Positions 4,291 through 35,311 of a stretch of DNA of 64,000 nt are shown here, in pieces (within the stretch, counting starts at the first letter, position 1; the number at the start of each line of letters is the position of its first letter). The stretch is from Betaproteobacteria bacterium (GTDB lineage Bacteria > Pseudomonadota > Gammaproteobacteria > Burkholderiales > Thiobacillaceae): positions 62,001-126,000 of the forward strand of contig JACRNB010000012.1 in NCBI GenBank assembly GCA_016219425.1, read 5' to 3'. The notes beneath the pieces are model-generated. The model was not told the origin of the DNA and searched no databases. It saw only the letters and a program-made list of their open reading frames with translations. The position numbers and the translations under genes are program-made.

Positions 4291-5961
4291 TCAGATTTTG
4301 AACAAGTCCGCCAGTTGGCGCAGGTCGCCGGCCAGGTCCGCCACCTCCGCCGCGATGTGGGAGGCCTGGGCGCTGGCATTCGCTCCCTGATCCGTCATTC
4401 GGGCCACTTGTTCAACATTCTGGGCAATTTCGCGCGCGGCCACGCTCTGCTCCTGCAAGGCTTGGTGGATCTCCTTGACCGCATGCACCACCTGTGCGGA
4501 GGTGGCGCGGATGTCCACGATGGAGTCCCCGGCCAGTCGCGCCAGTTGTACGCCCCCGGAGACGCGATGCACCCCGGTTTCCATGTCGTTCACGGCCCGG
4601 TGCGCGCCTTCCTGCACCTTGGAGATCATGCCCACGATCTCTTCGGTGGCGCGGGTGGTGCGTTCCGCCAGTTTGCGCACTTCATCGGCCACCACGGCGA
4701 ATCCCCGCCCCTGTTCCCCGGCGCGGGCGGCTTCGATGGCCGCGTTGAGGGCGAGCAGGTTGGTCTGGTCCGCGATGTCCTTGATGACGCCGATGATCTT
4801 GGAAATGCCCTCGGTGTAGTTTTCCAGTTCACGAATGGTGGCGGCGGATTCATTGACGGCGTCGGCAATGCGCCCGATCTCGTCGGCGGTCTTGTGGATG
4901 ACGTCGCCGCCCTTTTGCGAGGAGTCGCCGGAGTGCAGGGAGATCCGGTTGGCGTCGCTGGCGTGTTCTCCCACCTGGTCAATGGACACGGACAGTTCTT
5001 CCACCAGGGCGGCCATGCTGGAGGTGGCTTCCGATTGTTTTTCTGCGGCGCTGGCGGCGGAGCGGCTGGATTCGGCCAGGACGCGCGAGGCGGATTCAAG
5101 ATGCACGGTGTTCTGCTTGATCAGCGCCGCGCCTTCCTGGAGGTTGTTGCGCATGATGGCGAACTGGTCCAGCAGTTGGCCGATCTCATCCCGGCCCGCC
5201 AGGGGGACCGGTTGGGAGAGGTCAAAGGCCGCAATCGCCTTGGCGGCGGTTACGGCGTTGTCCAGCGGTATTCGGAAGGAACGGACGACCCGCCAGGCGA
5301 CCAGGGGCCAGATGATCAGCACGAACAGCAGGATGATTTCCAGGCTCGTGCGGTACGGCGCCAGGAGCAGCGCCTGGTCGGGCTTCAGCAGCGCCGCCGC
5401 CGCGCTGATTCCCATCCAGCCGATCCCGACGCAGAGGAGCAGCGCGGCCATGGAGGCCAGGGTGGAGATCCACAGTTTTGTGGTCAGGTTCCGGTCGGAA
5501 AACCAGCGCAGGAGGGCGGCCAGCCCTTTGGGTGCGACAAGGCCGGCATCCAGGCGTAGGGAGGGGTCGTTGCGCATCTGCTCGTAGAGCGTTTCCGCCT
5601 GGGCGATTTCATCCCGGCTGGGGCGGACCCGAACCGACATGTATCCGCCCTCCGGCGTGGGCGAGGCCATGGCCTTGACCCAGTAGTGGTCGCCGTTTTT
5701 GCAGCGGTTCTTGACCATGCCGGCCCAGGGTCGCCCCTGTTGCAGGGTGTGCCAGAGGTCGCGAAACGCCTCTGCCGGCATGTCCGGATGTCGCACGATG
5801 CTGTGGGGCTGGCCCATAAGTTCCGCGCGGGAAAAACCGGAGTGGGCCACAAACTCGTCGTTGACGAAGGTGATGACGCCCTTGTCATTCGTGCGGGTGA
5901 CGATGGCCACGTGGCTGGGAACTTCTCGTTCCTGGTGAGTGACCGGCTGGTTATTGCGCAT
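4291..5961 (-). CDS. PAS-containing methyl-accepting chemotaxis protein (Aer-like)
   Basis: N-terminal PAS ([33 protein letters not shown]), TM segments, MCP hairpin ([40 protein letters not shown]). Confidence 0.9.
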
Positions 5962-32270: not shown

Positions 32271-32297
32271 TAAAGTTTTCGTGTGGCAGGTCCGTAA
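32271..32297 (+). promoter_or_regulatory. Putative sigma-28 (FliA) promoter for flagellin
   Basis: TAAAGTTT-N11-GTCCGTAA, close to the FliA consensus TAAAGTTT-N11-GCCGATAA. Confidence 0.7.
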
Positions 32298-32309
32298 AAG
32301 GGTTTGACA

Positions 32310-32348
32310 GCATCATGAAGATGCAGTCCCAGAAGGAAGAAACCTTCT
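32310..32348 (+). promoter_or_regulatory. Two hairpins in the flagellin 5' leader
   Basis: GCATC-atgaa-GATGC (32310-32324) and AGAAGG-aagaaa-CCTTCT (32331-32348), upstream of AAAAGGAG and ATG 32379. Confidence 0.5.
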
Positions 32349-32378
32349 GATCCCGTTCCCTAGAAAAGGAGTTTCATC

Positions 32379-33743
32379 ATGTCTGATATCGCCCTCTCCG
32401 CCTCCATGCGTTCCAACCTCCAGAGTCTGCAGGCCACTGCCGACCTTATGGATCGCACCTCGCAGCGTCTGTCCACCCAGAAGTCCGTGAACAGCGTTAC
32501 GGATGATGCCGTGAAGTTCTTCACGGCCAAGAACCTGACCGCTCGCGCTGATCGTCTGGATACCGTCAAGTCGGGTATCGCCAACGCCCTGAGCGCCATC
32601 GAAACCGCCAACACCGGCATCAGCAGCATTCGTGACACCCTGAGTTCGATGGATGCCGTGATCACCCAGGCGCGTAACCTGGTGGGTCTGACCGACGCCA
32701 ACTCCAACGCCCAGCGTCAGGATCTGGTGACCCAGTACAACACCCTGCGCAGCCAGATCAACAACATCGTTGATGACTCCAGCTACAACGGCGTGAATTT
32801 CCTGAAGTCCGCCACCGCCCTGACCGTGGCCTTCAACGAGACCAGTTCCACCTCGCTGACCGTAAACGGTTTTGCCGGCGCTGCGGATAACCTGGGTACG
32901 GGCAGCAGCACTGGCGGCACCGCCAGCACCACCACCAACGCCAACGGTTCCGTCAGCACCAGCCTCGGCTCGGTCGGGACGGTGGCGACGGGTACGGGCG
33001 CTCTGGGTTCGTCCACCACCACGGCCACCTTCGGCAACATCGTTGTCACGTCCACCCCGGATGCGGACGGCGGCGCCGGCGGTACCTACAGCGTGACGGA
33101 CGGCACCAACACCTACACCATCGGTAACGGCGACACCTACACCTTTGGCACGGGCGCCGGCACGATCACCGTGTCTGCCGCCGCCAACCTGGATGCCGCC
33201 AACGCAGCCATCACCGTGACCTACCAGGAAGGCGCCTCTGCGGATGCCAACCTGGACGATACCGTGTCCTTCAACGTGGATACCGGCGTCGTGACCTCCA
33301 CCCTGAAGAACGGCGCGGGCGCTTCCACTGCCATTGTCCACACCCCGGGCGCGGCTCCCACTTCCGCCATCACCGTAACCGGCGCGGGCGGCACCATCGG
33401 CGGCGGCACCGGCGTTGTTGCCCTGGCCACCGCTGGTTCCACCGGTGCGGCCCTCGACACCACCGCAGAACTGGATGCCTTGGCGACCAAGATGACTTCG
33501 GCCCGGTCGTATCTGACCCTGAACGAATCCAAACTGGCCGGCAACGTGTCCACCCTGAGCAACCGTCAGGATTATTTGAGCGACCTGATGGCTACCCTCT
33601 CTGCGGGTGCGGACGATCTGACCAAGGCGGATGTGAACGAGGAAGGCGCCAACATGCTGGCCCTTCAGACCCGTCAACAGCTGGGTATGACCTCTCTGAG
33701 CCTGGCTTCTCAAGCTCTGCAAGGCGTCCTGCGTCTGTTCTAA
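32379..33743 (+). CDS. Flagellin
   Basis: N-terminal flagellin domain (SASMRSNLQSLQATADLMDRTSQRLSTQKSVNSVTDD), Thr/Gly/Ser-rich variable region, C-terminal domain ending LGMTSLSLASQALQGVLRLF. Confidence 0.9.
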   Translation: MSDIALSASMRSNLQSLQATADLMDRTSQRLSTQKSVNSVTDDAVKFFTAKNLTARADRLDTVKSGIANALSAIETANTGISSIRDTLSSMDAVITQARNLVGLTDANSNAQRQDLVTQYNTLRSQINNIVDDSSYNGVNFLKSATALTVAFNETSSTSLTVNGFAGAADNLGTGSSTGGTASTTTNANGSVSTSLGSVGTVATGTGALGSSTTTATFGNIVVTSTPDADGGAGGTYSVTDGTNTYTIGNGDTYTFGTGAGTITVSAAANLDAANAAITVTYQEGASADANLDDTVSFNVDTGVVTSTLKNGAGASTAIVHTPGAAPTSAITVTGAGGTIGGGTGVVALATAGSTGAALDTTAELDALATKMTSARSYLTLNESKLAGNVSTLSNRQDYLSDLMATLSAGADDLTKADVNEEGANMLALQTRQQLGMTSLSLASQALQGVLRLF

Positions 33744-33820
33744 CGGACACGGAGCTAGAGTCCAATGACGGCGACCGGATCGGCTAACCCCGAACCCGGT
33801 TGCTGTCGAAGGAGAAAACC

Positions 33821-34531
33821 ATGGCAATGGAGATCATGACAGTCGGTCTGGGGCCCCCGCAAAGTGTGGTCCATTCAGGATCCGCCCCCTACAGCGCCGC
33901 TCGCAATTCGTCGGCTCCGCAGAACCCGAGGCCTGATTCAGGCGCAGGGAATGCGGAAGCTGTCTTTGCCGGACGCGCCGGTTTCGCCTCCCTGAGCGCA
34001 TCGAATGATGATGCGGGCCGGGCGGCGCAGTCGGTGCGCGCGGCGGGACGATCCCTCGAAAAGGTTGCGCAAGCTGTGCACGAACTGAAGGACAGCGTGG
34101 TAACGGTCATCAAGAACTACCCGCCGTTCCCTCAGGGCGACCAGAAGCGAGCGGAATTTCTCAACAGCATCAACGGACTACGCCAGCAGTTGGCCGCCAT
34201 GACGGTGCCGCCTGCCGGAGACAGTCTGGAGCCGGTGATCTACCCGCGCGAGTACGACCTGCCCTTCCTGAACCCGGACAACGCCAGCGAAGAGGAATTG
34301 CAAGCCTTTTCAAGGACGCTGGACGAGATGGAAGCCAAGGTGATGGAAGGATTCGCGGACCTGAAAGCGTTGGTGGATAAATTGCCGAAGAAGATCAATG
34401 CCGACCTCACGCTTCCTCTCAACGGGGATGACGAGGCCGGGCAGGTCAGCCACGAAACTGGCGGCAAGATCGGTCTGCAACGAGTGTCTCTGCTGGGCGA
34501 CAGCAGTGTGCTCACTTCCCTCGGAGGATGA
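33821..34531 (+). CDS. Uncharacterised protein in the flagellin-flbT operon
   Basis: ORF between flagellin and flbT with 4-bp ATGA overlap to flbT; no family recognised; start at ATG 33821. Confidence 0.65.
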   Translation: MAMEIMTVGLGPPQSVVHSGSAPYSAARNSSAPQNPRPDSGAGNAEAVFAGRAGFASLSASNDDAGRAAQSVRAAGRSLEKVAQAVHELKDSVVTVIKNYPPFPQGDQKRAEFLNSINGLRQQLAAMTVPPAGDSLEPVIYPREYDLPFLNPDNASEEELQAFSRTLDEMEAKVMEGFADLKALVDKLPKKINADLTLPLNGDDEAGQVSHETGGKIGLQRVSLLGDSSVLTSLGG

Positions 34532-34932
34532 TCGTGCCGTTGAAGATCAGTCTGAAACCCCGCGAGAAGTTCTTTATCGGCGGAGCGGTCGTTGAGAATG
34601 GCGATTCCCATGCGGACTTGACCATCCTCAACGACGTTCCTCTCTTGCGTGAAAAGGATGTGATGACGGAACAAGAGGCGGATTCGCCCTGTCGCCGCAT
34701 CTACCTGTGTGTGCAGTCGATGTACATGGACCCGGTCAGCATGACCCACTACCAGCAGCAATACCGCCGCATGCTGGACGAAGTGACGGAAGCCGCCCCG
34801 AGCACCGGACGGTTCGTGGCGGACATAAATACCCATCTCGCCAGCGGGCGTTACTACCAGGCCATGAAGGCGGCGCGTCATCTGGTGGAATATGAACAGG
34901 AGTTGATCAGCCATGCCAAGGAATGCGCTTAG
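34528..34932 (+). CDS. flbT: Flagellar biosynthesis repressor FlbT family
   Basis: KISLKPREKFFIGGAVVENGDSHADLTILNDVPLLREKDVMTEQEADSPCRRIYLCVQSMYMD. Confidence 0.85.
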   Translation: MIVPLKISLKPREKFFIGGAVVENGDSHADLTILNDVPLLREKDVMTEQEADSPCRRIYLCVQSMYMDPVSMTHYQQQYRRMLDEVTEAAPSTGRFVADINTHLASGRYYQAMKAARHLVEYEQELISHAKECA

Positions 34933-35311
34933 CGCCTATCAGGACATCGAAAAGGCCACCCTGTCTGGCCGTGAGCTGGAAGCCTCGGTATTGATGCGGG
35001 CCGCCCTGGCGTTGGCGGCGGTAAAGGAAAACTGGGATGTCACCAACAGGGACGAACAACTCGATACTGCCCTGCGCAACAACCAGCGCATCTGGACCCT
35101 GTTCCAGTCCGAACTGGTGGAACCGGGCAATCCTCTCCCGGTCGAGATCCGGCGCAACATCCTGTCCCTATCCATTTTTGTGGATCGCCGCACCTTCGAA
35201 ATCATGGCCAAGCCGGCGCCGGAAAAGCTCGACATCCTGATCGCCATCAACCGCAACATCGCCGCCGGCCTTCGGGGCAGTCCTACCGTGGTTGGACAAG
35301 CCGCAGCCTGA
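34913..35311 (+). CDS. flaF: Flagellar biosynthesis regulator FlaF family
   Basis: AYQDIEKATLSGRELEASVLMRAALALAAVKENW ... ALRNNQRIWTLFQSELV; overlaps flbT. Confidence 0.85.
   Translation: MPRNALSAYQDIEKATLSGRELEASVLMRAALALAAVKENWDVTNRDEQLDTALRNNQRIWTLFQSELVEPGNPLPVEIRRNILSLSIFVDRRTFEIMAKPAPEKLDILIAINRNIAAGLRGSPTVVGQAAA

Follow-up and report, generated by a model that had tools for sequence, protein, structure and literature searches.

The operon analyzed here lies in a 64,000-nt stretch of DNA (hereafter, the window) from a 3.1 Mb genome whose completeness was assessed as 100%. The host is a Thiobacillaceae-like Burkholderiales bacterium and not an alphaproteobacterium, in keeping with a preliminary description of the sequence, to which the rest of the window looked beta/gammaproteobacterial. 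Positions 32271-35311 of the + strand carry a flagellin gene followed by a gene of no named family (hereafter, gene 2), flbT and flaF. This gene content and overlapping order, already given in the preliminary description, were borne out by the open reading frames and by Pfam, and the overlaps between gene 2 and flbT (ATGA) and between flbT and flaF are both real. We localized the following features:

32271..32297, + strand: σ28-like promoter, TAAAGTTT-N11-GTCCGTAA, 81 nt 5′ of the flagellin ATG
32321..32378, + strand: leader RNA element, candidate FlbT operator (covariance models R1 and R2; folding)
32330..32349, + strand: hairpin 1, CAGAAGG-AAGAAA-CCTTCTG, with a conserved AGAA in the loop (covariation, alignment A5)
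32359..32371, + strand: CCTAGAAAAGGAG, second AGAA motif between CC and GG, overlapping the Shine-Dalgarno sequence (motif count)
32379..33743, + strand: flagellin, 454 aa, of the FlaF/FlbT-associated type (Pfam Flagellin_N/C; NCBIfam)
33821..34531, + strand: gene 2, 236 aa counted from the ATG, no named family (profile comparison)
34528..34932, + strand: flbT (Pfam PF07378, 148 bits)
34913..35311, + strand: flaF (Pfam PF07309, 115 bits; NCBIfam PRK12794)

In the promoter, the -35 element and the 11-nt spacing are exact, and the -10 element matches at 5 of 8 positions; TAAAGTTT occurs as a single copy on the + strand of the window, with its first base at 32271. Promoters of the σ28 type with a score of at least 13/16 were identified in 46 of 62 flagellin upstream regions from outside the alphaproteobacteria and in 0% of the shuffled sequences, and in none of the 42 alphaproteobacterial upstream regions. 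The 3′ neighbors of the operon are a DUF2802 gene, a FliK-like gene and a gene similar to the C-terminal part of FlhB, and its setting is therefore one of flagellar genes. On its 5′ side are rpsA, ihfB, hfq (on the opposite strand), a cbpA-like DnaJ gene and a cmk-like gene assigned by eye.

The host flagellin combines Flagellin_N (54.1 bits) and Flagellin_C (30.6 bits) matches in one protein, both above the cut-off; its best NCBIfam model, PRK12688, scored below its own cut-off. At 454 aa, it is approximately 170 residues longer than the flagellins of most beta relatives, due to added sequence in the middle of the protein, and the only beta relative with a flagellin of comparable length (452 aa) is UBA2597. 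FlbT covers all of PF07378 (positions 1-125 of 125) with 147.6 bits (curated cut-off, 27). It falls short of both NCBIfam equivalogs, with 109.4 bits (cut-off, 125) and 112.8 bits (cut-off, 153), and is a divergent FlbT, as would be expected of a non-alpha branch. Sequence comparison detected no solved structure related to it. FlaF matched PF07309 with 114.6 bits (cut-off, 23.6) and PRK12794 of NCBIfam with 123 bits (cut-off, 91).

The distribution of the module was followed in 61 relatives, of which 23 belong to the host genus (host included), 14 to the rest of the family and 24 to further families of the order. FlbT is present in 27 of them (19/23, 7/14 and 1/24, respectively). In wider draws, it was found in 11 of 399 genomes of the order, from three families, in 3 of 274 of the class and in 61 of 299 of the phylum, nearly all of these last outside the host's class. 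Given its rarity in the order and the class, the module is not the usual equipment of the order; widespread FlbT and FlaF in the host's order, which the preliminary description had named as evidence against its own reading, was not what we found. Genes for FlbT and flagellin were also seen side by side in Geobacteraceae, Syntrophales and Nitrospirota, among others.

Of the 61 relatives, 21 have FliS, and these same genomes are the ones with FliD; both are absent from 26 of the 27 FlbT-bearing genomes, the exception being G004. Among the relatives, strong matches to canonical flagellin (E < 1e-25) are restricted to the FliS-bearing genomes. The host genome yielded neither FliS nor FliD nor a canonical flagellin; Flagellin_N matched only two of its proteins, the flagellin of the window and a FlgL-like protein. 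Therefore, the module is the host's filament system rather than an extra one and, as judged from gene content, it is the sole filament system in the host genus. This does not agree with the separate flagellin island of the preliminary description, and the second native flagellin or fliS-fliD locus that it suggested looking for was not found in the host. The sequences place the module, with its four conserved genes and structured leader, where canonical flagellin, FliD and FliS would be. The FliC-FliD-FliS locus of other Burkholderiales does the same job, providing the filament subunit, chaperone and cap, but searches of the host turned up none of the three, and the host flagellin is of another type. 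The replacement of FliC, FliD and FliS by the module indicates that a flagellum can have its filament portion exchanged as a unit. G004 carries both a canonical FliC-FliD-FliS locus and an FlbT module (L165 = G004:C24; L152 = G004:C12) and is a natural test case for the division of labor between filament systems; its contamination estimate is 5%, and it is uncertain that both come from one cell.

The order flagellin-gene 2-flbT-flaF recurs in nearly all beta- and gammaproteobacterial, Geobacteraceae and Nitrospirota loci and in no alphaproteobacterial locus. The preliminary description had missed that the module includes, as conserved components, both gene 2 and the leader RNA. A gene 2 profile matched exactly the 27 of 61 relatives with FlbT, with one weak match (E 1.2e-4) in G059, which lacks FlbT; in 41 FlbT-bearing alphaproteobacterial genomes, it gave no match save a weak one in G705 (E 1.7e-4). 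The core of the protein reads K-x-[YF]-P-P-[YF], followed by R, L, R and P. Assignment to a known family was rejected, as searches of Pfam (with every member of the set), NCBIfam and PDB sequences gave nothing convincing; Flagellin_N and Flagellin_C matched neither the host protein nor appeared among the 25 most-matched families of the set.

Based on hhalign comparison, gene 2 aligns with flagellin at 92.6% (P 4.5e-7) from approximately residue 58, past the N-terminal D0 domain, and its profile resembles flagellin D1. The controls reached maxima of 1.2% with reversed profiles and of 0.3% in 30 column shuffles. Against the non-alpha flagellin set, the value was 96.5% with the L039 fusion included and 72% (P 3.4e-5) without it. 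This fusion (L039 8754-9626, on a deltaproteobacterial contig) occupies the usual place of gene 2 and has Flagellin_N at its start followed by the gene 2 core; it is plausibly a natural intermediate from flagellin to gene 2. A FlgL-like junction protein was also considered and rejected, with a profile comparison of 0.7% against a FlgL set of six sequences only. The predicted model of gene 2 is helical, with the first ~40 residues disordered. In one fold search, flagellins ranked first, with no match at E < 0.001; a search with a second model returned mostly generic helical bundles with flagellins scattered among them, none at E < 0.001. Gene 2 likely descends from flagellin, apparently minus the N-terminal D0 domain.

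In Caulobacter crescentus, FlbT is reported to bind only FljJ, a regulatory flagellin; repression by FlbT is described as requiring FljJ and as being relieved by FljJ export once FlaF has accumulated (PMC7591256). By analogy, gene 2 is plausibly the counterpart of this FlbT partner. Both systems have FlbT and FlaF, a flagellin paralogue as the candidate FlbT partner and no FliD found by the family model. FljJ, however, is a full-length flagellin, reported as 49% identical to the others (PMC7591256), whereas gene 2 has no recognizable N-terminal D0; it may work like FljJ, yet we do not class it as a flagellin. The two systems also differ in that the host is a betaproteobacterium and gene 2 is absent from the alphas, and in that the Caulobacter flagellin genes are described as RpoN dependent (PMC3930126), in contrast to the σ28-type promoter of the host.

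FliD is missing wherever gene 2 is present, except in G004, and gene 2 might instead be a secreted part of the filament, i.e., a cap or hook-filament junction protein replacing FliD, and not a regulator. Nevertheless, FlbT-bearing alphaproteobacteria lack gene 2, and Caulobacter also lacks FliD according to the FliD_N model; therefore, no FliD substitute is required. A flagellin-like protein with a disordered N-terminus, as in many export substrates, located after the first flagellin in two-flagellin operons, would suit such a role, but it shows no recognizable N-terminal D0 for filament stacking, and the overlap of its stop codon with the flbT start in the host suggests that its translation is coupled to that of the regulator. 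On balance, we consider a structural role unlikely, although it deserves to be kept in view. As a partner of FlbT, gene 2 would be a natural minimal flagellin-derived protein, useful for studying how cells sense filament export.

FlbT has been recognized as a regulator of flagellin mRNA since 2000. Reviews describe the Caulobacter protein as working via the flagellin 5′ UTR to repress translation (PMC3930126, PMC4347634), and a table in the second leaves the FlbT target sequence blank and calls the mechanism unresolved. In the leaders compared here, we identified a hairpin whose loop reads AGAA or, in some leaders, AGGA; the 3′ end of the hairpin lies ~20-36 nt before the start codon, and CCnAGAAAAGGAG follows, located around the ribosome site. 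Of the 56 non-alpha leaders, 43 carry such a hairpin, where dinucleotide shuffles predict 1.0; of the 39 alpha leaders, 20 do, against 0.55 predicted. The second motif, CCnAGRAnGG, was counted in 43 of 56 and 26 of 39, respectively (shuffles, 2.6 and 1.0). In a sequence-only MAFFT alignment, the named structure beats all 500 shuffles in both cells paired and covariation score. From this same raw alignment, RNAalifold predicted zero pairs because 4- and 5-nt loops shift the 3′ arms out of register. In the model-based alignment A5, which was fitted to the structure and whose covariation figures lean toward it, the covariation score was 0.460 vs 0.174 in shuffled alignments (0/500 as high), with 103 doubly changed cells vs 37.7. 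The loop letters are conserved as well as the stem, and the folding z-score of 32321-32378 is -3.5.

Model R1, built without the host leader, gave one clear match in the window, at 32321-32378 (28.1 bits, E 2.1e-4; next, 12.6 bits). Over 1.3 Mb, 49 of its best 50 matches lie directly 5′ of flagellin genes, and its best matches include four alpha leaders from outside its training set. The refined model R2 (50 rows, with the host leader and many leaders of relatives among them) matched the host genome once (E 1.2e-5) and, at E < 1e-4, 27/27 FlbT-bearing and 0/34 FlbT-lacking relatives; since many of these leaders trained the model and the genomes are related, the counts represent association rather than independent proof. 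No covariance model of Rfam 15 matched the leader up to E = 1. Leaders of Caulobacter-type flagellins, at the loci of one alphaproteobacterial family, have hairpins with AGAA loops, scored weakly by R2 (10-13 bits); the one flagellin of this family that was compared scores 265-288 bits against FljK/FljL/FljM/FljN in PDB. Altogether, the leader element is a strong candidate for the FlbT operator. In the literature, we found no earlier description of the leader hairpin or of a flagellin-like fourth protein; searches for FlbT with Geobacter or betaproteobacteria and for FlaF with Thiobacillus, of incomplete coverage, returned nothing relevant.

Exactly the same 27 of the 61 relatives carry FlbT, gene 2 and the RNA element, counts that are not independent given how akin these genomes are. 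The flagellin type, FlaF and gene 2 track the RNA element as well as FlbT does; as all members of the module co-occur, the binder is assigned from prior knowledge of FlbT.

Hairpins near the 5′ end generally stabilize mRNAs, and the leader hairpin might be such a stabilizer or a CsrA site, unrelated to FlbT. CsrA governs flagellin mRNA in other phyla (PMC4894983), and alpha leader loops are often AGGA and hence contain GGA, but most non-alpha loops are AGAA and have no GGA. Moreover, the conservation covers the loop letters and not the stem alone, no element was found at E < 1e-4 in the 34 relatives lacking FlbT (FliS and FliD being present in 20), and the second flagellin operons of G001 and G014, which have no neighboring flbT, lack it as well; this explanation appears rather improbable to us. 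The likeness to CsrA-FliW of Campylobacter and Bacillus, an analogy drawn earlier (PMC4894983), is one of function: the flagellin leader is the target of a protein whose action is undone by a partner tied to flagellin, as is proposed here for FlbT. The proteins are different, and the loops carry GGA versus the AGAA of the module.

Two further observations concern leaders. Second flagellin operons with flaF yet no flbT nearby (L150 3832-5800 and L138 2233-3891, the leader of the latter examined as L087:604-676) have leaders without the RNA element. The promoter and leader element are also located 5′ of a fimbria-like DUF4402 operon (L204 ~4950-5110 and L205 ~170-330; elements at G007:C11:149995-150049, - strand, and G012:C110:230-284). 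The first ~17 codons of this operon are flagellin-derived in appearance (MTDTQIPLMASHRSNLKGLN); a second ATG comes after them, then a signal peptide, an arrangement that looks like the capture of a flagellin leader.

We consider it fairly probable that the operon is a FliD/FliS-independent filament module of the Caulobacter type, of old acquisition, in which FlbT would control the RNA with gene 2 as its partner. σ28 would switch the operon on, and the AGAA hairpin together with the CCnAGAA motif over the Shine-Dalgarno sequence would constitute the FlbT site. Gene 2 would be the dedicated partner of FlbT, in the role of FljJ in Caulobacter, and is probably non-polymerizing because its N-terminal D0 domain is apparently missing. 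Repression would be lifted once the gene 2 protein is exported or captured by FlaF; FlaF, a reported flagellin export chaperone in Caulobacter (PMC7591256), would then take flagellin to the export gate. The Brucella and rhizobial systems share the FlbT and FlaF families, and FlbT has been proposed to bind the fliC 5′ UTR there; they differ in that FlbT is proposed as an activator (both PMC4347634) and in that searches of alpha loci and genomes did not recover gene 2. More tentatively, with slightly less than even confidence, we propose that the element is the FlbT operator from Caulobacter-like alphaproteobacteria to Thiobacillaceae, Geobacter and Nitrospirota, that FlbT and gene 2 act as a co-repressor pair in which the truncated flagellin senses assembly, and that non-flagellar capture of the element is possible (G007, G012). 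With a conserved, covarying element whose loop letters are fixed, the FlbT target becomes directly testable, and the main interest of the locus lies in this candidate operator and gene 2 rather than in horizontal transfer.

A tree of concatenated flagellin, FlbT and FlaF, unrooted and from which the direction of transfer is consequently not readable, separated an alpha group (support 100/100), a beta/gamma group with the host (99/91) and a delta/Nitrospirota group (96/78). The host's clade adjoins the Geobacter/Syntrophales/Nitrospirota modules. With these non-alpha clades, FlbT and FlaF are not confined to the alphaproteobacteria, of which the preliminary description had called them typical. 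The row nearest to the host is Thiobacillus sp. UBA2597, and other species of the host genus are scattered elsewhere within the beta group; some exchange of the module inside the family is therefore likely. The host lies outside the alpha group, and a recent alpha donor is therefore not supported; an old replacement of the filament genes by the module is the supported reading. The proposed transfer as one module stands insofar as flagellin, flbT and flaF travel as an operon and the module is not the usual one of the order, but a recent alphaproteobacterial source, rejected on this tree, does not.

Recent acquisition from an alphaproteobacterium is very improbable. In its favor, FlbT and FlaF are commonest in classes of the phylum other than the host's and rare in Burkholderiales, and the GC content of the operon region is ~62% against 67-70% in the surroundings, though the adjoining rpsA and ihfB are equally low. 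Against it, the beta/gamma clade is distinct from the alphas, the alpha modules lack both gene 2 and a σ28-like promoter, and the module is distributed across the host genus and family. The module that we favor as an old acquisition would be common to Thiobacillaceae-like bacteria and not a recent alphaproteobacterial gift.

Divergent FlaF-like orphan genes are present in members of the host family that lack FlbT (L161 10298-10738, - strand; L162 9163-9582; L163 9546-9971, - strand; L164 9319-9684). Two carriers of such orphans, G026 and G027, have zero flagellin matches, and the orphans in L161 and L162 adjoin deformylase-, phosphorylase- and GlnD-like genes, named by eye.
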